From Lentisphaera araneosa HTCC2155 (GTDB lineage: Bacteria; Verrucomicrobiota; Lentisphaeria; Lentisphaerales; Lentisphaeraceae), in contig NZ_ABCK01000037.1 of assembly GCF_000170755.1 (NCBI RefSeq), positions 1 through 40,229 of the forward strand: a DNA stretch of 40,229 nt, in the 5' to 3' direction. Shown piece by piece: positions 1,212 through 19,110 of the stretch. Position numbers and translations under genes: made by a program. The stretch's first letter is position 1, and each line of letters starts with the position of its first letter. The notes beneath the pieces are model-generated. The model did not search any database, was not told where the DNA came from, and saw only the letters and a list, made by a program, of their open reading frames with translations.

Positions 1212-2483
1212 TTATGCCAGGAAACAGCTTTCTGTACCAGTGCTATTTCCGAATTTTTTGACATCAATTCCCATTCCCCGGAGTGTACTTAGCCATACAT
1301 TAGAGAGAGGAGTGATTTTGTTTTCAGGAAGGCAATAATGACCGCGCTTCATTCGTCTAAAAGCACCGCCAGCCATAATGTACGGGAAATGTCGAACAGA
1401 ATGTCCTGTGCTCAAATTCGTACCGTAGACGATGAGTGAATTATCAAAGAGGCTACGATCATTGGAATCTTTTATTTCTTTGAATTTTGTCAGCGCGTAA
1501 CTGAGTAAATCCATATTCACTTTGTCTCGTTGAATTGATTTTGCTGTGAGCTCTTGTGAAGCATTATAGTGACTGATCTGGTGAATGTGATTGTCGATCT
1601 CTAAACTATTTAAAACCGCTTGGTTCGGCAGAGTAAAAGAGGCTACGTTGGTTTGACCAGTTTGGAACGCGAGCGCAATCATATCGTAAACTATTTTGAT
1701 ATCTTTGATACCATCCATTTTACCATTTTTGTTGGAATCTTCTTCAAATAAATTACTACTGTACTCAAAGGGTGCCTTAGGTTTGGCAATATCAATCCAC
1801 TGAATTTCCTTGGCAATTTCTTGCTCAATTTGACGAATAGCGGTAAAATATTCCTCTAACTTATCCTTGTCGGATTTAGCAATCTGCTTTGAAAATGAGT
1901 GCGTATTGATTTTAATGGCGTCAAGCACACTACGCTTCTCTTTTATGCGTTGCATGACCTGAGCTTTACTCTCATTCCCGCCGAATAATTTATGATATAA
2001 ATCCGACGACTTTTTAATCCCAGGAATTGGGTCGCCTGTAAAAGCCCAAGACAAGCCATAGCGCCCATGACCATCCTGATAAAGCCCGGAATTGACTACT
2101 AAGTTACTATATCGAGCGTTTCTGCTTAAATAAGTTCCAGCAAGGACATCGCAGGAAACCGATCCTCCAGCTCTCAGAAAGCCGTCACTGCCAGCGTGAG
2201 TACCATTCCAGCCAATATTATTTAATTTACCCACCATACATATATCATTAATGTGTGGTGTGAGTGGCATCATACTCGGAGTTAATCCATTCTCGGCAAA
2301 GCTACCCTCTTGTTCAGGATAGAAATCTTTATTGGTAAAACCATAACCTTGGCCGATAAAAAGCATTTTTTTTGATGAATCAACTTTTCCTTTTGTGACC
2401 GCCTCAAGGCTTGGCAATGCTAAACATGCTGTTGAGGAAAGGATAAAAGATCGACGTGATAAATTTGATTTAAGTACACTCAT
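1212..2483 (-). CDS. DUF1552 family protein, Tat-exported
   Basis: 423 residues. The N-terminus has a twin-arginine signal (S9-R10-R11-S12-F13 followed by a hydrophobic stretch), the usual start of DUF1552 proteins in planctomycetes and Lentisphaerae. The body has family-like segments: 'GVKSF'-type targets are absent, but the GTHAGSDGFLRAG region, the long helical 'DKLEEYFTAIRQIEQ' segment and a C-terminal 'SLIVYGTNLSTGHSVRHFPYIMAGG' block are typical. The biochemical function of DUF1552 is unknown. It is almost always paired with DUF1592/1588/1585 cytochrome proteins, as here: only 8 nt separate it from the upstream FHA-cytochrome gene. The ribosome-binding AGG overlaps that gene's TAG stop, which suggests translational coupling. 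The family call is confident; the role is inferred to be an exported partner of the cytochrome protein. Confidence 0.85.
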   Translation of the reverse strand: MSVLKSNLSRRSFILSSTACLALPSLEAVTKGKVDSSKKMLFIGQGYGFTNKDFYPEQEGSFAENGLTPSMMPLTPHINDICMVGKLNNIGWNGTHAGSDGFLRAGGSVSCDVLAGTYLSRNARYSNLVVNSGLYQDGHGRYGLSWAFTGDPIPGIKKSSDLYHKLFGGNESKAQVMQRIKEKRSVLDAIKINTHSFSKQIAKSDKDKLEEYFTAIRQIEQEIAKEIQWIDIAKPKAPFEYSSNLFEEDSNKNGKMDGIKDIKIVYDMIALAFQTGQTNVASFTLPNQAVLNSLEIDNHIHQISHYNASQELTAKSIQRDKVNMDLLSYALTKFKEIKDSNDRSLFDNSLIVYGTNLSTGHSVRHFPYIMAGGAFRRMKRGHYCLPENKITPLSNVWLSTLRGMGIDVKKFGNSTGTESCFLA

Positions 2484-2491
2484 ATATTTAC

Positions 2492-5400
2492 CTACTTTGT
2501 TCTAAAAATTTTGGAATTAATAACTTCAGCAATCATAGCTTTCATGGGATAATTTTTACGCTTCAAACGGCTGAGGATCATATTGATTTCTCGTTGATCT
2601 ATAAACTCAATTCTTCTACCGATTCCATAGGAAAGCATGTTCTCGAATATCGAGCGCGCAAGATGGTCTTTTTCTTTTAACAAAGCCTGTTTAAAACCTT
2701 TTAGATCTTCAAAAGACGAACGATCATTTATGTAACCCTCTTCAATGAGTTCAGCCGTTTTTACAACTTTCAATTTGCGCCCAGATTTTTGCAAAATTTT
2801 AACTTCATCTCGATGTTTAGCTAGGTAATCAAAACTTTCTAAACCATAACCAAGGGGGTCTATCTTTTCATGACAGGATTTACATTGGGCCACCTCCTTA
2901 TGCATATCTACGAGTTCGCGCACAGTTCGTGGCGTACCATCATCTTTTGTGTCTAACTGCGGGACATTTGGCGGAGGTGGTGGTGCGGGATCGTGGAGAA
3001 ACTTACTTCTAATCACTGTACCCCGTATAGTGGGGGATGTTCTAGGCCCTGAAGTCCCCATCATGAGGAATGCGGCTTGTGTTAAGATTCCACCTCGCTC
3101 ACTACCTTGGGGTAATTCAACGGGTGTAAAACCTTGAAAGCTACCCGCTATTCCGTAGTAATCGGCCATCGTCTGGTCGACGACAGCATATTTTGAATCA
3201 ATTAAGTTATCGACTGCTAAATTTTTATTGATTAAAAAATTGAAAAACTTAAGGGGCTCTTCACGAACTGATTCACTAAACTGACCTTTGAGTTCATTGG
3301 GCATAGCGACTATATCCAAGCGATCGAGTTCTAGCCATTGCTTAAAGAAATCATTCATTGCTAATTCACTTTTAGGAGAAGCTAACATTCGCTCCACTTC
3401 TTTACTAAGACCCAAATTCGAGCGTAAGCCACCTGATTTCGCCGTTTTCAACAGTTCTTTATCTGCAGGCGCACCCCATAAGAAATAAGACATACGAGTC
3501 GCAAGCTCTTCTTGACTGAGGGGCTTTCTTTGCCCCATGTTGTATTCCTTTATATACAAAAATGAAGGAGAGGTCAAAATGCTTGCTAATGGTGGCACAA
3601 TTGCCTCCTTAAAGGACTTACCATTTTCTATATGATTTTCATAAACTTCCATCAAAGAATTCAAAAATGGCGATTCAACTTCCACACCTCTAAAAGCAAG
3701 GCTAGCAAAATCTTTTAAAGCGTCTTTCACATCTCCAGATGAAACTGAACGCGCATGAACGAATTCTCCAAAACTCTCTTCAAAAGGCGAATCTTCCGTT
3801 TCGAGAGGCTTCAATTCAATATAGTCTACGTAGCCCCCCTTTGGAGTATCCATTCTAAAGCCAATTTTATCTTGGAGTAAGCTAGCCGTAAATTCAAAAG
3901 AAGTTTTAAGTCTTTCTTCACCAGTATTAAAATGAACATCAGCTACATAATTATTGTGAATACCGCTTTCAAATTTAAGCGGAATCGATTGCTCTATATT
4001 CCCAAATGAATAAATATTAATTCTATACCTGTAACCTGGCGTTACGCCAGTCTGAAAGAGTACTCTACCACTCGCTGCATGCTTGTGATTATCATCTAAA
4101 ATATAATAGATATCCCGTGGTACGGTGATACGCCCAACTTTTCCGGGGAAGATCTTCATAGTTCTCTTTTTAATTTCTGCATGAGTCATGCCGCGGTAAT
4201 CTTCGATATCCACACCCTTGCTCTTGACACGATTGGCTAAACTATTATTGAGCACCTCTGGATCCACTCGTTGAACTTTATCATAACGGCCCTTCCGTTC
4301 CAAACCTTTGATTGCGTATTTCGCAACTTCTAAACCCGCATTGTAGTACATAAAGTAATGATTAGAAGTGAAAAACTGTTCCTTACCTATTGTGTCTAAA
4401 CCCTCAGGAATATCAGTTGGCAGAGCAGCTGTATCTAAGTCCGCATGAAAAAGATTCTGTATGCTTCCACTATATTCGCGACGGTTAAGGTGACGCATAG
4501 TTATAACCCCACCAGTTGCTGAAAGTTTTTCACGAGCGACCTGCAATCGATCCGTGATAAGCCCAATAACTTCACTCAATTCTTGTTCATTGGCTTGCTT
4601 GACATCTTCAGGCGGCATCTCTCCAGTATTGAGAACATCGAGAATATCCTGCCAGTGATAAATTGAATCATGTGTCGAAAGGGCAAAATCTACGTGATCA
4701 AAACGGAAGTCTCCCTTTTGTTTTTTATCATCGTGACACCTAAAGCAGTACTTCTTAGAAAAATTGTAAATGGCATCTTTTTGCAGCACTGAGAGAGGAA
4801 GGCGTTGATGCGACACATTAATTACTTTTGCGCTCTTCGCAACTCCAGTATCGCTTGATGACAATTCAATATCCAACTCGTCAACTTGAGGCGCATAAGA
4901 CACTAATTCAGGACTTTTAATGACTTCTGGGCTCACTGAAGATAGTTCTTGTTTTTGCTCCATTTCAACTTTTTCAGTTACTTCTTTTTCAAGCTTATTT
5001 GAAGGAGTATTTGATACTACTACTGACGGGATTTTCGACTCATCAATTTCGCTCGAAAGAGCGACACGTTCATCCTGCTGCCCGCTGAAACTTTTAACTC
5101 CCTCTGAAATGGCTGGCCCATAAAAATACCCTATGACGACAAAAGTCCCTAATAAAGTAAGATTGCGTATACTTTTATTACGTTTTTGTTTTTTTCTCTT
5201 TTCTCTAAGTCTACTTCTAATTTCAGCAGCCTTACCATCTGTTTTTTCTCTGGCTTTCTTTCCAAATTGAGGCGTAGTCGCTTTTCTTTCTCCCTCCGCT
5301 TCTTGTGCGCCAATCACAAGTGTATTGAGTGAGACGACCTTTTGAAATTCCGCTAGATCTTTAACTAGCTCTTTTTCAGAGTTTGTGTTCTGAAAAAGTA

Positions 5401-5743
5401 AGTCTTCCAAAGCGGGCTCTTGATAGACAATTTTTTTCGCAGTATCTAACTCAACTTTAAACTCAATGCTGTGAGCTAATTTAACGACATCCCCACTCTT
5501 TAAATTCGCCTGACCATCTACCTTAGCTCCATTGACTTGCACTCCATTAGTGCTGCCCTCATCCTCAATGACCCAGTGGCCATCAATATCTAAAATAAGC
5601 GCATGCTTTCCGGAGATACCCGGAACATCCAAGCGAATCACATTGCCTTTATCACTACCAAGTGTAATTCGCGCTTCCTCACTTTCGCAAACCTGACCTT
5701 TCAGCCCTTCATTTAAAAATGTTATTTTCAACTTTTGCCTCAC
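2492..5743 (-). CDS. FHA domain + planctomycete-type cytochrome (DUF1587/1592/1588/1585) membrane protein
   Basis: 1083 residues. Residues about 1-100 form an FHA phosphothreonine-binding domain: the SGKH segment (S-x-x-H) and EDEGSTNGVQVNG are visible. A basic, charged linker leads to one transmembrane helix at about 194-210. The rest is the planctomycete cytochrome arrangement: CFRCH heme motif (about residue 330) with KGDFRFD, a DUF1587 block starting 'MRHLNRREYSG', the DUF1592 region, a DUF1588 block with GPRTSPTIRG, a second CKSCH motif followed by EKIDPLGYGLE, and a C-terminal DUF1585. Topology predicts FHA in the cytosol and cytochrome outside. The start is GTG at 5743 (an in-frame TGA lies just upstream). 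A TTG at 5731, 6 nt after an AGG, would give a more typical FHA N-terminus (MKITFLNEG) and may be the true start. First gene of an operon with DUF1552. Confidence 0.85.
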   Translation of the reverse strand: MRQKLKITFLNEGLKGQVCESEEARITLGSDKGNVIRLDVPGISGKHALILDIDGHWVIEDEGSTNGVQVNGAKVDGQANLKSGDVVKLAHSIEFKVELDTAKKIVYQEPALEDLLFQNTNSEKELVKDLAEFQKVVSLNTLVIGAQEAEGERKATTPQFGKKAREKTDGKAAEIRSRLREKRKKQKRNKSIRNLTLLGTFVVIGYFYGPAISEGVKSFSGQQDERVALSSEIDESKIPSVVVSNTPSNKLEKEVTEKVEMEQKQELSSVSPEVIKSPELVSYAPQVDELDIELSSSDTGVAKSAKVINVSHQRLPLSVLQKDAIYNFSKKYCFRCHDDKKQKGDFRFDHVDFALSTHDSIYHWQDILDVLNTGEMPPEDVKQANEQELSEVIGLITDRLQVAREKLSATGGVITMRHLNRREYSGSIQNLFHADLDTAALPTDIPEGLDTIGKEQFFTSNHYFMYYNAGLEVAKYAIKGLERKGRYDKVQRVDPEVLNNSLANRVKSKGVDIEDYRGMTHAEIKKRTMKIFPGKVGRITVPRDIYYILDDNHKHAASGRVLFQTGVTPGYRYRINIYSFGNIEQSIPLKFESGIHNNYVADVHFNTGEERLKTSFEFTASLLQDKIGFRMDTPKGGYVDYIELKPLETEDSPFEESFGEFVHARSVSSGDVKDALKDFASLAFRGVEVESPFLNSLMEVYENHIENGKSFKEAIVPPLASILTSPSFLYIKEYNMGQRKPLSQEELATRMSYFLWGAPADKELLKTAKSGGLRSNLGLSKEVERMLASPKSELAMNDFFKQWLELDRLDIVAMPNELKGQFSESVREEPLKFFNFLINKNLAVDNLIDSKYAVVDQTMADYYGIAGSFQGFTPVELPQGSERGGILTQAAFLMMGTSGPRTSPTIRGTVIRSKFLHDPAPPPPPNVPQLDTKDDGTPRTVRELVDMHKEVAQCKSCHEKIDPLGYGLESFDYLAKHRDEVKILQKSGRKLKVVKTAELIEEGYINDRSSFEDLKGFKQALLKEKDHLARSIFENMLSYGIGRRIEFIDQREINMILSRLKRKNYPMKAMIAEVINSKIFRTK

Positions 5744-5806: not shown

Positions 5807-6008
5807 ACTTTAACAGTAAAAATCAAATGAAATGATTTTTATTTGTATTAAAGAAGTCTTCATTCGCTTAGTTTAACACTGAATAGAATATGATTTGGCT
5901 GAAACTTAACCTCTCTCTGTTATGATTAAGAAGCTTTTCGTCATTATATAAAAAGATCTTAACAAAGTCCCTCTTTTTAGAGCTAAAACATAAGCATAAG
6001 GCCCCTTG

Positions 6009-7427
6009 ATGAAGTATTTCATATTCTTTGCCTCATTTATTACTATCCATATACAAAGCGCCACAGAGAAACCTAACTTTCTTTTCATCTTAATTGATGA
6101 TCTAGGTAGACAAGACCTCAACTGTTATGGAAGTAAATTTTACGAAACGCCTCACATTAATCAATTGGCTGAAGAAGGCACCCTCTTTACTGATGCTTAT
6201 TCGGCCAGCCCCGTATGTTCCCCTACACGTGCAAGTATTCAAACAGGTAAATATCCCTCGCGTATCAATTTCACACGTGCCACTCCAACACATAATTTGC
6301 CCTACGAAGAAACAACTCTTGCCGAAGCTCTCCAAGCATTTGGATATAAAACCGCCCATATGGGCAAATGGCATATGCGTCTTTACAAAGAAAAAGGTCA
6401 TAAGCACTTACCTACTGAACATGGTTTTGATATCAATATTGGCGGTCATTCAGCGGGTCAACCCGCTTCATTTTTCTACCCATACAAAGCCAAACATGAT
6501 AAGTATAGAAAAAATGATGTTCCTCACATGGAAGATGGCAAAAAAGGAGATTACCTCACCGATGCCCTCACTGATAAAGCTATCAATTTTATGAAGGATA
6601 ATCAAGATCAACCTTTCTACCTCAACCTATGTTACTACACCGTTCATACGCCAGTGACAGGCAAAAAAGATAAAGTTAAGAAGTATGAAGAAAAACTCAA
6701 AAAGATCAGTGCTAATCAGCAATCTAGCTCAACTCAAGACTATGTAACCTTTGCAAGAGATAAACAAGACAACGCCGAATATGCCGCCATGGTGGAAAGC
6801 ATGGATGAAAATATAGGACGCCTTAATAAATTTCTAAAACAATCTGGACTCGATAAAAATACCGTTGTGATTTTCACTTCAGATAATGGTGGCTTATCAA
6901 CGAACAAAAATCCAAAGGCTGGTCCCACATCGAGCTTTCCTCTTCGCGGTGGGAAAGCCTGGGTCTATGAAGGAGGAATTAGGGTTCCACTTATTATCAA
7001 ATGGCCTGAATCGACTCAAGCTGGATCAGAAATCTCCAGCCCAGTTATAAGTACTGATTTTTACCCTACAATATTATCAATGGCAGACCTAGCACTCAAA
7101 CCCAAACAACACCTAGATGGTCTTGATTTAACAGCCCTACTTAAAGCTGAAACTCAAAACCTGAATCGAGAAGAGCTACACTTTCATTTCCCACATGATC
7201 ATAATGTCAATGGTATGGGCGCCTCTTCTGCAGTTCGTGTAGGTCACTACAAACTCGTAGAACGTTTTTCAAATGGAAAACTCGAACTCTTTAACCTCAA
7301 AAATGATCCCGGCGAAACAAATAACCTCTCAGCTGAGTACCCTGAACTCACCAAAGAACTTCATAAGAAGATGCAAAAATGGAGGATAGAAACACAATCG
7401 ATGATTGCCAAAAGCAAAGAAAACTAA
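6009..7427 (+). CDS. secreted arylsulfatase-family enzyme (formylglycine-dependent, type I)
   Basis: 472 residues from ATG 6009. A TTG at 6006 is in frame, but AAGG at 5998-6001 is better spaced from the ATG. A short signal peptide ends near residue 18 (MKYFIFFASFITIHIQSA). The sulfatase fold is clear: metal ligands in LIDDLG (D30, D31), the C70-S-P-T-R74 signature whose Cys is converted to formylglycine, MGKWH (about 118-122), and TSDNGG (about 290-295) for the calcium site. Family members cleave sulfate esters, in marine PVC bacteria usually from algal polysaccharides; the substrate cannot be read here. It needs a formylglycine-generating enzyme. The FGE-fold protein at 23437 lacks one of the two catalytic cysteines, so the maturase is probably elsewhere. 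The gene is a single unit, divergent from the FHA-cytochrome operon. Confidence 0.92.
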   Translation: MKYFIFFASFITIHIQSATEKPNFLFILIDDLGRQDLNCYGSKFYETPHINQLAEEGTLFTDAYSASPVCSPTRASIQTGKYPSRINFTRATPTHNLPYEETTLAEALQAFGYKTAHMGKWHMRLYKEKGHKHLPTEHGFDINIGGHSAGQPASFFYPYKAKHDKYRKNDVPHMEDGKKGDYLTDALTDKAINFMKDNQDQPFYLNLCYYTVHTPVTGKKDKVKKYEEKLKKISANQQSSSTQDYVTFARDKQDNAEYAAMVESMDENIGRLNKFLKQSGLDKNTVVIFTSDNGGLSTNKNPKAGPTSSFPLRGGKAWVYEGGIRVPLIIKWPESTQAGSEISSPVISTDFYPTILSMADLALKPKQHLDGLDLTALLKAETQNLNREELHFHFPHDHNVNGMGASSAVRVGHYKLVERFSNGKLELFNLKNDPGETNNLSAEYPELTKELHKKMQKWRIETQSMIAKSKEN

Positions 7428-9245: not shown

Positions 9246-10115
9246 TTAAGTGAGTTCTTTCATGACTAATTGCAGATCCGACCAAGCTTCTTTCTTTTTA
9301 ACTTTACCATACACATTTTCTGAGCGCATCAAAAATGCGGGTGAATAACTAGGCATAATTTTGACTCCATCCCAATTGATCCATTTCCCACGGCACTGAT
9401 TAATACTCTCGTACTCAGAAATAGCTCTAATGATACTTGGGCTACAAACAACACAGGCTTGGGGTTTAATCAGCTTCATTTGCTGTAAAATAGCCGCAGA
9501 TTGCTCTTTTAATTCACTTGAGCGTGGGCATCGGTGGATATTGGCAATGTAAACATCTTTCATATCGAGTTTCATCGCCGATAAAATTTTCTTAAAAAAG
9601 TCACCTGTGGGTCCTGCAAAAGGGTCTTGTAAATCACCCTTGATTAAGGAAGCATCTAAGACAAACATGACTTTAGCTTGATTAGTTTCCGCAGGATCAT
9701 TAAAGGACAAGAGGCATTTTTTACAAGATAAAGCTTTTGAACGTAAGTCATCAAGGGGAAGGGAACTGAGATCTATTTTCTCTTCAATTGCTACTTCGAC
9801 TTGTGTTTCTTCAGCTTCTTTGTTAATGCCCAATTTTCTAATAGGCACCTCATTAGGAGCTTTTAATTCAAGTTTCTCCTGTAAGACAGGTGGTACACTA
9901 TGTGTTTTTACATTGGTCTTTGCTTTTACTTCTGCAGTAGCTTCCTCACATGGAAGCTCTTCATCTGATAATTTTTCGCAGTTGGGGAAAGTGAGTGGTA
10001 CTTCTGCTTGAAAATAAAAGAAATCGTTGAGTTGCTCATGAGATAAGTCAAAGTTTTTATCACCTGAACGACTTTCATTTTTCAGGGCTTCTTCAAGTGC
10101 TTCGATGATTTTCAT
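9246..10115 (-). CDS. uracil-DNA glycosylase-fold protein (family 4/5-like), degenerate motifs
   Basis: 289 residues from the ATG at 10115, chosen because GGAG sits 5 nt upstream and the frame overlaps the pseudokinase stop by 23 nt; longer upstream starts lie deep in that gene. Residues about 1-125 are a charged, poorly conserved linker. The C-terminal half aligns with Fe-S UDGs: C131-KK-C134, DPFAGPTGDFF, VYIANIHRC (C196) and YSPAFLMR, ending in a WSDLQ helix. Several key features are altered. The GEAPG motif reads VLDAS. The HPS His is Ser (YSP). The fourth cluster Cys is not in its usual place, though C221 and C224 lie nearby in QACVVC. It may be a DNA-repair glycosylase with a modified site or a catalytically dead relative. 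Family confident, activity uncertain. Confidence 0.75.
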   Translation of the reverse strand: MKIIEALEEALKNESRSGDKNFDLSHEQLNDFFYFQAEVPLTFPNCEKLSDEELPCEEATAEVKAKTNVKTHSVPPVLQEKLELKAPNEVPIRKLGINKEAEETQVEVAIEEKIDLSSLPLDDLRSKALSCKKCLLSFNDPAETNQAKVMFVLDASLIKGDLQDPFAGPTGDFFKKILSAMKLDMKDVYIANIHRCPRSSELKEQSAAILQQMKLIKPQACVVCSPSIIRAISEYESINQCRGKWINWDGVKIMPSYSPAFLMRSENVYGKVKKKEAWSDLQLVMKELT

Positions 10116-11370
10116 AGCACTCCATGAGCCGTGATAGACTTTCTCTATCATCGTCATTTTTATCTTTTTTGTTACCCATAAAATAAGCCATAAGGAGAAC
10201 AACTATGACTATTAAAACGATAAACACTGTTGCCAAAGGAAAGCATTTTGGCTCGACATCATCATCTTCAGTAAAATCACTTATTTGTTCTTGATTCAAT
10301 TCTTCTTGGTCTTCTTCAAGTGGAGTGACTGAACTGGGAGGGTGTAAGTTGCGTTCCGAAGCAAGTAAACTCAAATCAATTTCTGCTGTTTTTTTCGGCA
10401 CCAAAGTATCGCTTGGACTCGGTGCAAATTCTTTCAAAATTTCTTTACTCGGATTGAGGTCGACGCGCTCTAGATCGCTAATCAAATCATCGATTTGAGG
10501 GCGATGCTCAGGATGTTTTTCAAGCATAGAGAGGATTAAGCGATCGAGGCTTTCTGGAATTCTATTATTAAAACTTCTGAGGGACTCTGGTTTTAAATTC
10601 TTATGAGCTTCCAATTGAGCATTGGCACTCTCCTCTTTATAAAATGGTGGGTGTGATGCAAAGAGTTCGTAAATAACACAGCCCAGTGAATAAAGGTCGG
10701 ATTTAGCCGACACTTTGCGCTCTGTAATAACTTCTGGTGCGACGTACTGAGTATTATTAACCGGATTAAAGCCCAGATCTTTTTTAGAAAGTTCAAAAGC
10801 TGCTGGCCAGGACATTTCTACATCATAGAAAGCAACTTGATCTTGTACATAGGAAATTGTACTGGGTTTAATATTTGAGGCAATCAAATCGTTCTTCGCA
10901 AGATCATCATAGGCTCTGAGGAGTTGAAGACTGATGCCTAGGCATTGATCCAAAGTTAGTGACTGCTTTTGCCTGTGCCCCTTGAGGCTCGTTTTCATGA
11001 ATTCATACTCGACACAAAATTGATCCTCATATTCAAATGAATTTTGGATTTTAACTAAATGGTCGGATGAAAGCGAAGTTTGTTTTTGGACGCTCAACTT
11101 TAAGGCTTGTTGGGCATGAAGTGAGTCACTTATTAAGTTGTTAAAAACTCGCAAACGACAGAGTTTCCCCTCTTTATTTAGAGCATTATAAGTATCTGAA
11201 AATTCATCGTTAGCTTTGATGACTTGCAGTATATATGTGCTAAAAGCTTTGGGGACAGTAAAGGTGTAATGACACGAAGAGCAGGATTGTTTAGTTAGAG
11301 CTTTGTTGTAATCGAAAAACATCCTGGTTTCACAAGATGGACACGCGGCTTTAATCTGCTCTGTACTCAT
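10093..11370 (-). CDS. zinc-ribbon Ser/Thr pseudokinase with C-terminal membrane anchor
   Basis: 425 residues. A CPSC...CSSC zinc ribbon (C10, C13, C30, C33) opens the protein. A Hanks-type kinase fold follows (about 45-300), recognised by YVAPEV (APE), KSDLYSLGCVIYELF and the C-lobe HPEHRP. Catalytic residues are lost: no glycine-rich loop is visible, the beta3 Lys region reads LCRLRVF, the HRDLKPxN loop reads ASNIKPST, and DFG reads DVE. It therefore looks like a pseudokinase acting as a scaffold or allosteric regulator. An acidic linker leads to a single transmembrane segment (about 383-405) and a short charged tail. The start has AGGA about 7 nt upstream. It lies 12 nt after the ROK gene and overlaps the UDG-like gene by 23 nt, so the two are likely translationally coupled. 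Confidence 0.82.
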   Translation of the reverse strand: MSTEQIKAACPSCETRMFFDYNKALTKQSCSSCHYTFTVPKAFSTYILQVIKANDEFSDTYNALNKEGKLCRLRVFNNLISDSLHAQQALKLSVQKQTSLSSDHLVKIQNSFEYEDQFCVEYEFMKTSLKGHRQKQSLTLDQCLGISLQLLRAYDDLAKNDLIASNIKPSTISYVQDQVAFYDVEMSWPAAFELSKKDLGFNPVNNTQYVAPEVITERKVSAKSDLYSLGCVIYELFASHPPFYKEESANAQLEAHKNLKPESLRSFNNRIPESLDRLILSMLEKHPEHRPQIDDLISDLERVDLNPSKEILKEFAPSPSDTLVPKKTAEIDLSLLASERNLHPPSSVTPLEEDQEELNQEQISDFTEDDDVEPKCFPLATVFIVLIVIVVLLMAYFMGNKKDKNDDDRESLSRLMECYENHRST

Positions 11371-16076: not shown

Positions 16077-17234
16077 TTAAAAATGCGCTAACAGGTCTTC
16101 TATCTGCCTATATGTATGAAGACTTGAAAGAGTTAAACGTAAACGCGAACTCCCTTTAGGAACAGTTGGTGGCCTAATAGCCGGTATCAAAAAACCTTTT
16201 TCGAAGAGCTCTTTAGATTTATTTAAGGCCCCCTCTTCTGAGCCTATGAGTACGGCAATAATCGGTCCCTCTCCTTCAATTAATTGATAACTTTTTTGCT
16301 TTAAAGATTCGCGAAGGTACTTACACTTTTCCAATAAAGATCTTCGCTTAGCTTCATATTCCTCGCTTGCCATTAACTCAAGTGATTTTAAATTTGCCGC
16401 AATAACTCCAGGAGGCAAAGCCGTGGAAAAGATATAGGATCGACAGGTATTTAAAAAATAATCTTTCAAAGCCTTACTTATACAAGCATAAGCACCAAAA
16501 CTCCCAAAAGCTTTAGAAAAAGTTCCGAGCAGCAAATCCACATCCTTTGCCCACCTACCCGTGGGACCACAACCATCTTCTCCGTAGACGCCAGCACCAT
16601 GTGCGTCATCTAAATATAAAAATGCCTCATACTTTTTTGACAAGGACACCAAATCCGCAATAGGTGCCTCATCACCATCCATACTAAATACGGTTTCCGA
16701 AATAATAATTTTGTGCTCTACATCTTGGTAGCGTTCAAGGAGCTTTCCTAAAGAACTGATATCATTATGATGAAAACGCTGAAACTTGGCTCCCGACAAA
16801 CGAATGCCATCAATGATTGAAGCGTGAACCAACTTATCAGCAAAAATCATGGTGTTTTTATCCGCCAAAGCCTGAATCAAACCGACATTTGCCTGAAAGC
16901 CACTATTAAAAACGATACTTTCATCCGCCCCTTTCCATTGAGCCACAGCTTTTTCTAGGTCATCATGCAAAGGCATTGTACCACAAACTAAACGCGAGGC
17001 AATTGATGAAACACCTAAACTTTGAGTCGCATGACTAGATGCTTCGACAACACGTTTATCTAAGTGCATACCTAAATAACTATTTGAAGAAAAGTTGATT
17101 AGGGTTTTGTTTTCAAAGCTGTACTCCACCCCCTGTGAATACTCATAAACCTTAGCTTGCCTAAACAAGTCTTTTTGCTTTACCTCTTGTATAAAGTCCT
17201 CATACTTCTGCTCATCATACATCCTTAAAAGCAT
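16077..17234 (-). CDS. bioF: 8-amino-7-oxononanoate synthase family PLP enzyme
   Basis: 385 residues. This alpha-oxoamine synthase condenses an acyl thioester with an amino acid (for BioF, pimeloyl-ACP/CoA with alanine). Visible are SSNSYLGMH, the Cys/His region FADKLVHASIIDG, the cofactor aspartate in YLDDAHGAG, the PLP lysine in GTFSKAFGSFG, and RPPTVPKGSSRLRLTLSSLHT, which favours BioF over serine palmitoyltransferase. The first 20 nt overlap the end of the kinase/cNMP gene. Both candidate starts (17234 and 17222) have weak ribosome-binding sites, so coupling to the kinase is likely. No other biotin genes lie nearby. A related enzyme (Kbl-like or lipid-directed) is the main alternative, and the OleC-like ligase two genes upstream could in principle supply an activated acyl group. 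Confidence 0.85.
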   Translation of the reverse strand: MLLRMYDEQKYEDFIQEVKQKDLFRQAKVYEYSQGVEYSFENKTLINFSSNSYLGMHLDKRVVEASSHATQSLGVSSIASRLVCGTMPLHDDLEKAVAQWKGADESIVFNSGFQANVGLIQALADKNTMIFADKLVHASIIDGIRLSGAKFQRFHHNDISSLGKLLERYQDVEHKIIISETVFSMDGDEAPIADLVSLSKKYEAFLYLDDAHGAGVYGEDGCGPTGRWAKDVDLLLGTFSKAFGSFGAYACISKALKDYFLNTCRSYIFSTALPPGVIAANLKSLELMASEEYEAKRRSLLEKCKYLRESLKQKSYQLIEGEGPIIAVLIGSEEGALNKSKELFEKGFLIPAIRPPTVPKGSSRLRLTLSSLHTYRQIEDLLAHF

Positions 17235-19110
17235 CCAATATTTTTGGAGGTGTACTTGGATTAAAAGCTTTTGTTCTATGCTTTTTCCCTTGAGCGCTTT
17301 GCAGTGACTCTGAGTAGAGTGAATAATTCTTCAATTCTTGTAGCTTTTTCCCAAAGTGAATTCGGAAATCTTTGAGCTCATGTCCATTAAGCTCCTCCTT
17401 TATACGCTGTAATTTACCAAAGGGTGGAATTACTTCATTGGGCCACAAACGCAAATTTCGATGAACCAAACTTTTCCCATCCGTATAAGTCCGATTTATA
17501 TTTAAAGAACTAATTATAGTCGTTGAGGTACGAGCCAAACTTGGAGCATTCTTCGTATAATCGACAAAATCGCAAAAGAGCGTCCAACTAGTAATTGAAA
17601 GACGTGTAGCATTATTATCTTGCGCTAAACCCATCTCAACTAAGCCAGCTAAAACAGGACGAATCCTCGTTTTCGGAATTTTTAAATTATTTGCCACTTC
17701 GCTCATCAACTCCTGTAAAGGCATACTGATATTCCCATCCGTATCTAAGCTGCCATAAACTGCCATTAACAAACGAACCTGCATAATAACTTCAAAGGTA
17801 CAATCAGCTACAATCATGGGATGAGCCACATCATCCATTTGCCTAAGGCGCTTAAAAAGCGAACTCATCATTCCTTGAAACCAAGGTGGGAGTTTTTCCA
17901 CTTGACGATGAAGACAATCATTAGAAATCTTAATGCACTTAGTTTTCATGGTCGCACTCACTGTTGCAGAGCGAGTTTTCTCTGTAATCAAGGCCATTTC
18001 ACCAAAAACATCGCCTGGCCCTAAGTGCGTCAGAATATGTTTTTTACCATTAATTCTTTTGTAGACTTCAACCTCACCTTCCACAATTAAAAAAGCGTCA
18101 TTACCCAAATCACCATGTTTAAGGATGATTTGCCCCTTTTTGAAATCAATTTTAGTTGAAATAATTTGACCAGACAGAAAACCATCAATAGCATTAGACA
18201 ACTCTTCGACTGTTTGAAACCTATCTTCCTGCTTTGACGCCATGGCTTTTTCAATAATATCGCATAATTCAACAGGGATTTGTTTCTGCAAAGAAAAATC
18301 GGCTACAGGTTTTACTTTATTGAGCTCTGACCTCTCGATTGTATCAGTTAAACTGGATCCTTTAAAGGGCTGGCGATGAGTGAACAAATGATAGAGTGTC
18401 GCCCCAAGTAAAAAGATATCTGACAGCTCATCCACATCATCAATATCACCGCGAGCTTGCTCTGGCGACATATAACCCGGACTTCCCTTAATAATACCAT
18501 CCATTGTCAAAGATGTATTTGTTGGATGATAAGGAGTCTCACCGTCTTCTTCATCGTACTCGCGATCTTCGTCTCCAAGATACTTCGCGAGCCCCCAGTC
18601 CATCAATAGCACCTCACCAAAGGAGCCTACCATGATATTTTCAGGCTTTATATCGCGGTGAACAACGCCATTGAAATGGGCGAAAGAGACTGCATCACAA
18701 ACCTTTCGAAAAATAGTCAAAAGAGTAAACTGACTGTAAAAGCTTAAAAACTCTTCTTCTCCACTAGAAAGAAGCTTTATAACATCGGATAAAGAATCAC
18801 CTTGGACGTATTTCATTGTGAAGAAAACTTTACCTTCCCCATCCACCCCCAAACTATGCACTGGCACTATATTTGGGTGCTCGAGTCTACCCGTAATCCT
18901 CGCCTCTTCAACAAACTGCAGGATGCGTTCATCATCCTTTGCAATTTTGTCGAGCATGACTTTATAGGCTATATCACGATTCAAAGGGATGTCGTATTTA
19001 CGATGAACTTCACCCATTCCACCAACTTCTAAGAGTCCCCTGTCTTCTAGGTCCTTCCCCTTCTTTAAAGCCTGAATTTGCTTGACTAAATCTTTAGCTT
19101 CATGTTCCAT
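17215..19110 (-). CDS. Ser/Thr protein kinase with cyclic-nucleotide-binding domain
   Basis: 631 residues. The kinase domain (about 24-312) keeps its catalytic residues: glycine loop GGMGEVH, Lys50 in AYKVM, HRDIKPEN (His151-Asn158), D171 in a DWG variant of DFG, and GYMSPEQ. Residues about 320-425 form a cNMP-binding/CRP-like domain (GDLGNDAFLIVEGEVEVY...GPGDVFGEMALITEKTRSATV), with the FGEMAL...TRSATV phosphate-binding cassette present. The C-terminal ~200 residues include a winged-helix-like segment (LMSEVANNLKIPKTRIRPVLAGLVEMGL). No transmembrane helix is seen, so it is probably cytosolic. This is a single-chain analogue of cyclic-nucleotide-gated kinase control. It overlaps bioF by 20 nt and follows the LolA-like gene after 90 nt. 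Confidence 0.9.
   Translation of the reverse strand: MEHEAKDLVKQIQALKKGKDLEDRGLLEVGGMGEVHRKYDIPLNRDIAYKVMLDKIAKDDERILQFVEEARITGRLEHPNIVPVHSLGVDGEGKVFFTMKYVQGDSLSDVIKLLSSGEEEFLSFYSQFTLLTIFRKVCDAVSFAHFNGVVHRDIKPENIMVGSFGEVLLMDWGLAKYLGDEDREYDEEDGETPYHPTNTSLTMDGIIKGSPGYMSPEQARGDIDDVDELSDIFLLGATLYHLFTHRQPFKGSSLTDTIERSELNKVKPVADFSLQKQIPVELCDIIEKAMASKQEDRFQTVEELSNAIDGFLSGQIISTKIDFKKGQIILKHGDLGNDAFLIVEGEVEVYKRINGKKHILTHLGPGDVFGEMALITEKTRSATVSATMKTKCIKISNDCLHRQVEKLPPWFQGMMSSLFKRLRQMDDVAHPMIVADCTFEVIMQVRLLMAVYGSLDTDGNISMPLQELMSEVANNLKIPKTRIRPVLAGLVEMGLAQDNNATRLSITSWTLFCDFVDYTKNAPSLARTSTTIISSLNINRTYTDGKSLVHRNLRLWPNEVIPPFGKLQRIKEELNGHELKDFRIHFGKKLQELKNYSLYSESLQSAQGKKHRTKAFNPSTPPKILDAFKDV

Follow-up and report, generated by a model that had tools for sequence, protein, structure and literature searches.

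A gene on the reverse strand of a contig of Lentisphaera araneosa HTCC2155 joins an FHA domain, a predicted membrane helix and a two-haem PSCyt/DUF1592 cytochrome module in one chain, and this architecture is real and conserved, being restricted within our sample to the family Lentisphaeraceae. The explanation that we prefer, with a probability of roughly 55%, is that the gene encodes a membrane-anchored periplasmic redox or degradation protein whose FHA domain serves as a phosphate-independent docking head. The window referred to below is the whole 40,229-nucleotide stretch analysed, which is contig 37 of a 6,023,180-base assembly of 81 contigs. Both the architecture and the swapping of heads among cytochrome bodies are new; no paper in the literature searched pairs "FHA domain" with DUF1592.

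Architecture of the fusion gene

The region 2492..5743 (-) is one unbroken open reading frame, opening at a GTG at 5743 and giving 1083 residues in frame translation. Translation probably begins at the TTG at 5731, which is preferred because it is aligned with the starts of the orthologues and has an AGG six bases upstream; the gene would then span 2492..5731 (-) and encode 1079 residues. The FHA domain (residues 26-89, 5477..5668 (-), Pfam E 1.2e-13) scored 51.7 bits against PF00498, above the curated cut-off of 20.7. It is followed by a strongly basic juxtamembrane linker (residues ~160-194, 5162..5266 (-)), which reads as a positive-inside signal, and by a predicted transmembrane helix (residues ~195-213, 5105..5161 (-)), indicated by hydropathy and by a helix at residues 168-208 in a structure model. 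These two elements and the FHA domain stand where the family usually, although not definingly, has a signal peptide.

The body keeps all the domains of its family in the family order. Pfam profiles recognised, all on the reverse strand, the PSCyt1 haem domain (residues 333-380, 4604..4747, with a CxxCH motif at 4733-4747), PSD3/DUF1587 (residues 417-478, 4310..4495), PSD5/DUF1595 (residues 672-733, 3545..3730), PSD4/DUF1592 (residues 742-865, 3149..3520), PSCyt3/DUF1588 (residues 883-979, 2807..3097, with the second CxxCH at 2870-2884) and PSD2/DUF1585 (residues 1009-1080, 2504..2719). A further segment lies between PSD3 and PSD5 (residues ~485-649, 3797..4291 (-)). Across 50 relatives, the two CxxCH motifs (residues 333-337 and 954-958) vary hardly or not at all.

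Distribution of the fusion

Six copies of the FHA-cytochrome fusion were found in four Lentisphaeraceae genomes: the window copy, two copies in tandem in G001 (G001a and G001b), one in G004, and one whole copy plus a contig-end fragment in G005. G001 and G002 belong to the genus of the window, and G005 to the same family. Each whole copy has an adjoining DUF1552 gene. No match to the fusion was obtained in G002 and G003. A search with the FHA profile, covering 388 genomes from the phylum and 294 from Planctomycetota, listed no long fusion beyond Lentisphaeraceae, these listings being bounded by E-value such that a very divergent fusion could escape; the long Planctomycetota FHA frames that were fetched and read had no PSCyt/PSD profile match. 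N-termini were also read for the 70 best relatives of the body; these likewise carry no FHA domain, and nearly all of them start with a signal-peptide-like segment, unlike the fusion with its FHA domain, basic linker and helix.

These results bear on several claims of a first-pass annotation of this DNA. Its description of an FHA domain, a single membrane helix and a two-haem cytochrome in one chain was borne out by the single open reading frame, the Pfam matches and the six homologous copies, as was the DUF1552 partner that it named (Pfam E 1.2e-47). The 70 relatives also agree with its statement that most family members carry a signal peptide instead of FHA. The search for this domain order across PVC genomes that it had suggested yielded the six copies in Lentisphaeraceae and none in the other genomes sampled. 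It had further cautioned that a frame error might have fused two genes; such an error, or an assembly chimera, would fit two unrelated halves within a single frame. However, an identical domain order and reading frame in six copies from four genomes rules this out, and we regard such an artefact as having a negligible probability.

The phosphate site of the FHA head

The canonical FHA motif is GR...SxxH...NG, and the version in the window protein is GS...SGKH...STNG. In the alignment, Ser30 (5654..5656 (-)) stands where the GR motif has its phosphate-binding Arg; SxxH is retained as SGKH (residues 44-47, 5603..5614 (-)), and the Asn is retained within STNG (residues 64-67, 5543..5554 (-)). The Arg position is taken by Ser in five of the six fused heads and by Cys in the remaining one, and Arg is kept in all 58 compared FHA domains that are not fused to a cytochrome (64 FHA domains from fetched loci, a sample collected by querying with the fused heads and including six mutually related heads, so that these are not 64 independent events). 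In addition, the SxxH Ser is followed by Gly, Ala or Ser in the six fused heads and never by a basic residue. The GR site aligned without gaps, in profile alignments, to EmbR, Rv1747 and FhaB, all of which show GR; 1uht likewise has GR, with a one-residue shift beyond the site, and GSD stands at this site in the chlamydial protein CdsD (3gqs), an SctD protein of type III secretion.

The SxxH Ser and His and the NG Asn (S44, H47 and N66) are invariant among the fused heads. Altogether, 19 of about 100 columns are invariant in the six heads, including SxxH, STNG and a Trp, which suggests that the FHA domain is under purifying selection and has been kept rather than left to decay.

Previous studies offer several points of comparison. 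In Agrobacterium Fha, R30 and S46 correspond to conserved phosphothreonine-binding residues, and the single substitution R30A merely reduced secretion (PMC3953482). The FHA domain of PrgH is considered unlikely to bind phosphothreonine, and the phosphothreonine motif of YscD is not conserved (PMC3635987). The afadin FHA domain, which lacks the two positive residues, binds its partner in a phospho-independent manner (PMC9355967). As judged from the aligned residues, the head of the fusion is probably phosphate-independent; phosphothreonine reading appears possible but disfavoured, and a phosphopeptide might still be bound weakly through the Ser and Asn that remain.

The first-pass annotation had assigned a phosphothreonine-reading role to this domain, to be abandoned for an FHA domain lacking its binding residues in a structural model. 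What was found comes close to that: the Arg is lost, but this was seen by alignment, since the FHA part of the whole-protein AF2 model is mostly below pLDDT 50 and high confidence is confined to residues ~650-1083. Thus, its overall interpretation holds for the layout, on the sequence and the six copies, while the phosphothreonine step is poorly supported. The lost Arg is a warning against deducing phosphothreonine signalling from an FHA label alone. A zinc-ribbon-like, FHA and GAF protein of the same genome (L226:5760-6959 on contig C5) also has a weak FHA domain without the GR Arg (GA), so that the Arg is also missing outside the cytochrome fusions.

FHA-TM-PEGA relatives

The nearest other FHA domains are the heads of FHA-TM-PEGA proteins of Lentisphaeraceae, which group with the fused heads in the tree (support 94/81) and keep the GR Arg in five of five cases. 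The six fused heads are not a single clade in the best tree, yet such a clade was not rejected (p-AU 0.43). In the genome of the window, G001 and G002, the FHA-PEGA gene abuts PSCyt2/PSD1 and DUF1501 genes and lies near a Ser/Thr kinase gene. The set of kinase, DUF1501, PSCyt2/PSD1 and Arg-bearing FHA-TM-PEGA genes is located at L226:7408-13124 (contig C5 of the window's own genome), L227:7683-13606 and L228:4649-10350, and its last three genes overlap, abut or lie close together. The G004 and G005 counterparts stand beside PSCyt2/PSD1 and DUF1501, with no kinase in the fetched stretch.

The FHA-TM-PEGA proteins therefore resemble the fusion in their FHA domain and in being tied to a PSCyt gene set, and those of G004 and G005 also have a similar membrane motif. 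They differ from it in keeping the Arg, in being encoded by a separate gene and in bearing PEGA domains outside the membrane in place of haem domains. Should a PSCyt complex in these bacteria be gated by phosphorylation, their gene set is a better candidate for it than the window fusion.

Separate histories of heads and bodies

A quick tree was built from bodies trimmed immediately ahead of the first haem motif, in which the G005 body sits on a long branch. The fused heads fall on three body lineages, one with the window, G001b and G004 copies, one with G001a and one with G005, and the starred branches of this tree force at least three head changes. Moreover, over 845 residues G001a shares 81% identity with L197, a protein of the window's own genome that is lipoprotein-like and has no FHA domain; the match starts at the membrane segment, and no FHA remnant was found upstream of L197. 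The window and G001a proteins are 47% identical in their heads versus 34% in their bodies, and another comparison across body lineages gave 40% versus 27%, whereas the window and G004 proteins, which share a body lineage, are 37% identical in their heads and 53% in their bodies. These opposite contrasts indicate that heads and bodies have separate histories, through either head transfer or loss and replacement.

The genome of the window encodes 38 PSCyt3 proteins, whose N-termini were classed by eye and hydropathy. According to this classification, 23 starts are signal-peptide-like, five consist of a zinc ribbon and a helix, six of a coil-like segment and a helix, and there are single cases of a lipoprotein-like start (L197), a short N-in anchor and an FHA domain, with one start (L206) ambiguous. 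In L042, L211, L212, L214 and L218, a zinc ribbon, a basic linker and a helix replace the signal peptide; in L044 (four tandem copies), L045 and L046, a charged, coil-like cytoplasmic segment of 120-245 residues precedes the helix. The six proteins with coil-like heads form one clade (100*), and the body clade of the window protein is sister to three zinc-ribbon proteins (100*). The heads of Lentisphaeraceae are thus exchangeable among PSCyt bodies. Cytoplasmic heads occur in the PSCyt2 group as well, as seen in a G005 protein (L079:816-4769) with a zinc-ribbon-like N-terminus, a helix and PSCyt1-PSCyt2-PSD1, which is followed by DUF1501.

The DUF1552 partner and the body

The gene 8 bp downstream of the fusion, at 1212..2483 (-), encodes the DUF1552 (HXXSHH) protein, and DUF1552 adjoins nearly all of the DUF1592 relatives that were read. 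An invariant RR close to the N-terminus of this protein fits export by a Tat-like signal, and the protein also has His and Asp residues that are invariant among relatives. Its structure model (pLDDT 87.5) predicts an alkaline-phosphatase superfamily fold, matching NPP/PafA with a Z of about 16 and an rmsd of 3.4-4.0 over 230-270 residues. A sulfatase gene (6006..7427 (+), Pfam) lies divergently upstream of the fusion, paralleling a report on freshwater Verrucomicrobia, in which PSCyt genes have sulfatases nearby and two unknown families adjacent, the functions being stated as unknown (PMC5615132).

A fold search with the body model, which is confident only at residues ~650-1083, returned no hit at E <= 0.001, and all Z values were below 5. 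The segment at residues ~485-649, partly of low confidence, showed a weak beta-sandwich likeness to galectin and carbohydrate-binding modules (best Z 4.6).

Comparison with known systems

The body matches the PSCyt/PSD proteins of Planctomycetes and Verrucomicrobia (the DUF1592/1588/1585 group) in its domain order, its two CxxCH motifs and its adjacent DUF1552 gene. For the head, one parallel is the SctD group of type III secretion (PrgH, YscD and CdsD), which also combines an N-terminal cytoplasmic FHA domain with a degenerate phosphothreonine site, one helix and an extracytoplasmic domain; CdsD likewise has GSD instead of GRD. Against PF16697 (Yop-YscD_cpl), the window head scored 26.7 bits, below the cut-off of 33.2, and the other four full-length fusions scored above it. 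The extracytoplasmic domain of SctD, however, forms rings, and that of the fusion is a cytochrome body: no ring-building periplasmic Pfam domain was detected in the window protein, whose outer part is PSCyt/PSD, and no type III gene occurs among the identified genes of the window. EmbR, FhaB, GarA and the type VI secretion Fha proteins, which bind phosphothreonine canonically, belong to the same domain family and have SxxH and the Asn in common with the fusion heads; unlike them, the fusion head lacks the phosphate-contacting Arg and is joined to a membrane cytochrome.

Proposed role and alternative explanations

Taken together, we propose that the fusion is a bitopic inner-membrane protein, with a periplasmic two-haem PSCyt/DUF1592 body that would work with the DUF1552 protein, probably in oxidising or breaking down products of sulfated polysaccharides, as the neighbouring genes suggest. 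The helix has a modest Kyte-Doolittle value of 1.51, and the strongly basic stretch before it predicts an N-in topology. The cytoplasmic FHA domain may act as a docking or scaffold head comparable to those of SctD proteins; it is related to the head of the FHA-TM-PEGA family and has been joined to several cytochrome bodies, replacing a signal peptide or lipid anchor.

Phospho-gating, as first suggested, would have a Ser/Thr kinase make a phosphothreonine mark that the FHA head reads, thereby recruiting or switching the periplasmic complex. It draws on the FHA profile match with intact SxxH and STNG, on the kinase-containing FHA-PEGA set of three Lentisphaera genomes, and on a Ser/Thr kinase in the window (17215-19110 (-)) that has the active-site motif HRDIKPEN and is fused to a cyclic-nucleotide-binding domain. 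However, nothing links this kinase to the fusion gene, which has no adjoining kinase; with Ser or Cys at the Arg position and no basic residue after the SxxH Ser, we consider such gating improbable. Another possibility is that the helix is a signal sequence that gets cut, which would free the FHA head and leave the cytochrome as a lipoprotein or a soluble protein. In four of the six fused heads, the helix does contain a lipobox-like Cys (LVGC, LLGC and LAAC; L077, L078 and L080), and the G001a body matches the lipoprotein-like L197 from that point onward. But this position is Tyr in the window protein and Lys in G005, the residues after the Cys are hydrophobic, unlike those of typical lipoproteins, and a leader of 130-200 residues would be unusual, which makes cleavage a poor prospect, slightly more so even than gating.

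The head might also be a mere anchor that holds the cytochrome in the inner membrane without any partner, like the short N-in anchor of the paralogue L205, with the type of domain being of no consequence. That related bodies bear zinc ribbons, coil-like segments or a lipoprotein-like signal would suit this idea; the 19 invariant FHA positions in six divergent copies would not, because a bare anchor needs none, and we hold it to be rather unlikely. The docking-head explanation can also be extended, tentatively and with considerably less confidence, to the PSCyt sets of Lentisphaeraceae in general: these may be envelope-spanning platforms, in which exchangeable heads (FHA, zinc ribbon or coil-like) each couple a periplasmic redox or degradation body to a different cytoplasmic partner. 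The fused FHA would then be an SctD-like counterpart, independent of phosphate, of the FHA-PEGA subunit that accompanies a kinase in the PSCyt2/DUF1501 set.

The PSCyt/PSD group has expanded strongly in PVC bacteria, with one subfamily alone reaching the above 38 copies in this genome. A cytoplasmic head offers a handle on what these proteins couple to and is usable as bait for a cytoplasmic partner, and the pair G001a and L197, with and without the head, provides a natural comparison of the head's role. Elsewhere in the window, the gene at 10093-11370 (-) encodes a probable pseudokinase, with a zinc-ribbon-like start, a kinase-like domain without the HRD motif and a C-terminal helix, and it overlaps the reading frame of a family-4-like uracil-DNA glycosylase (9246-10202).
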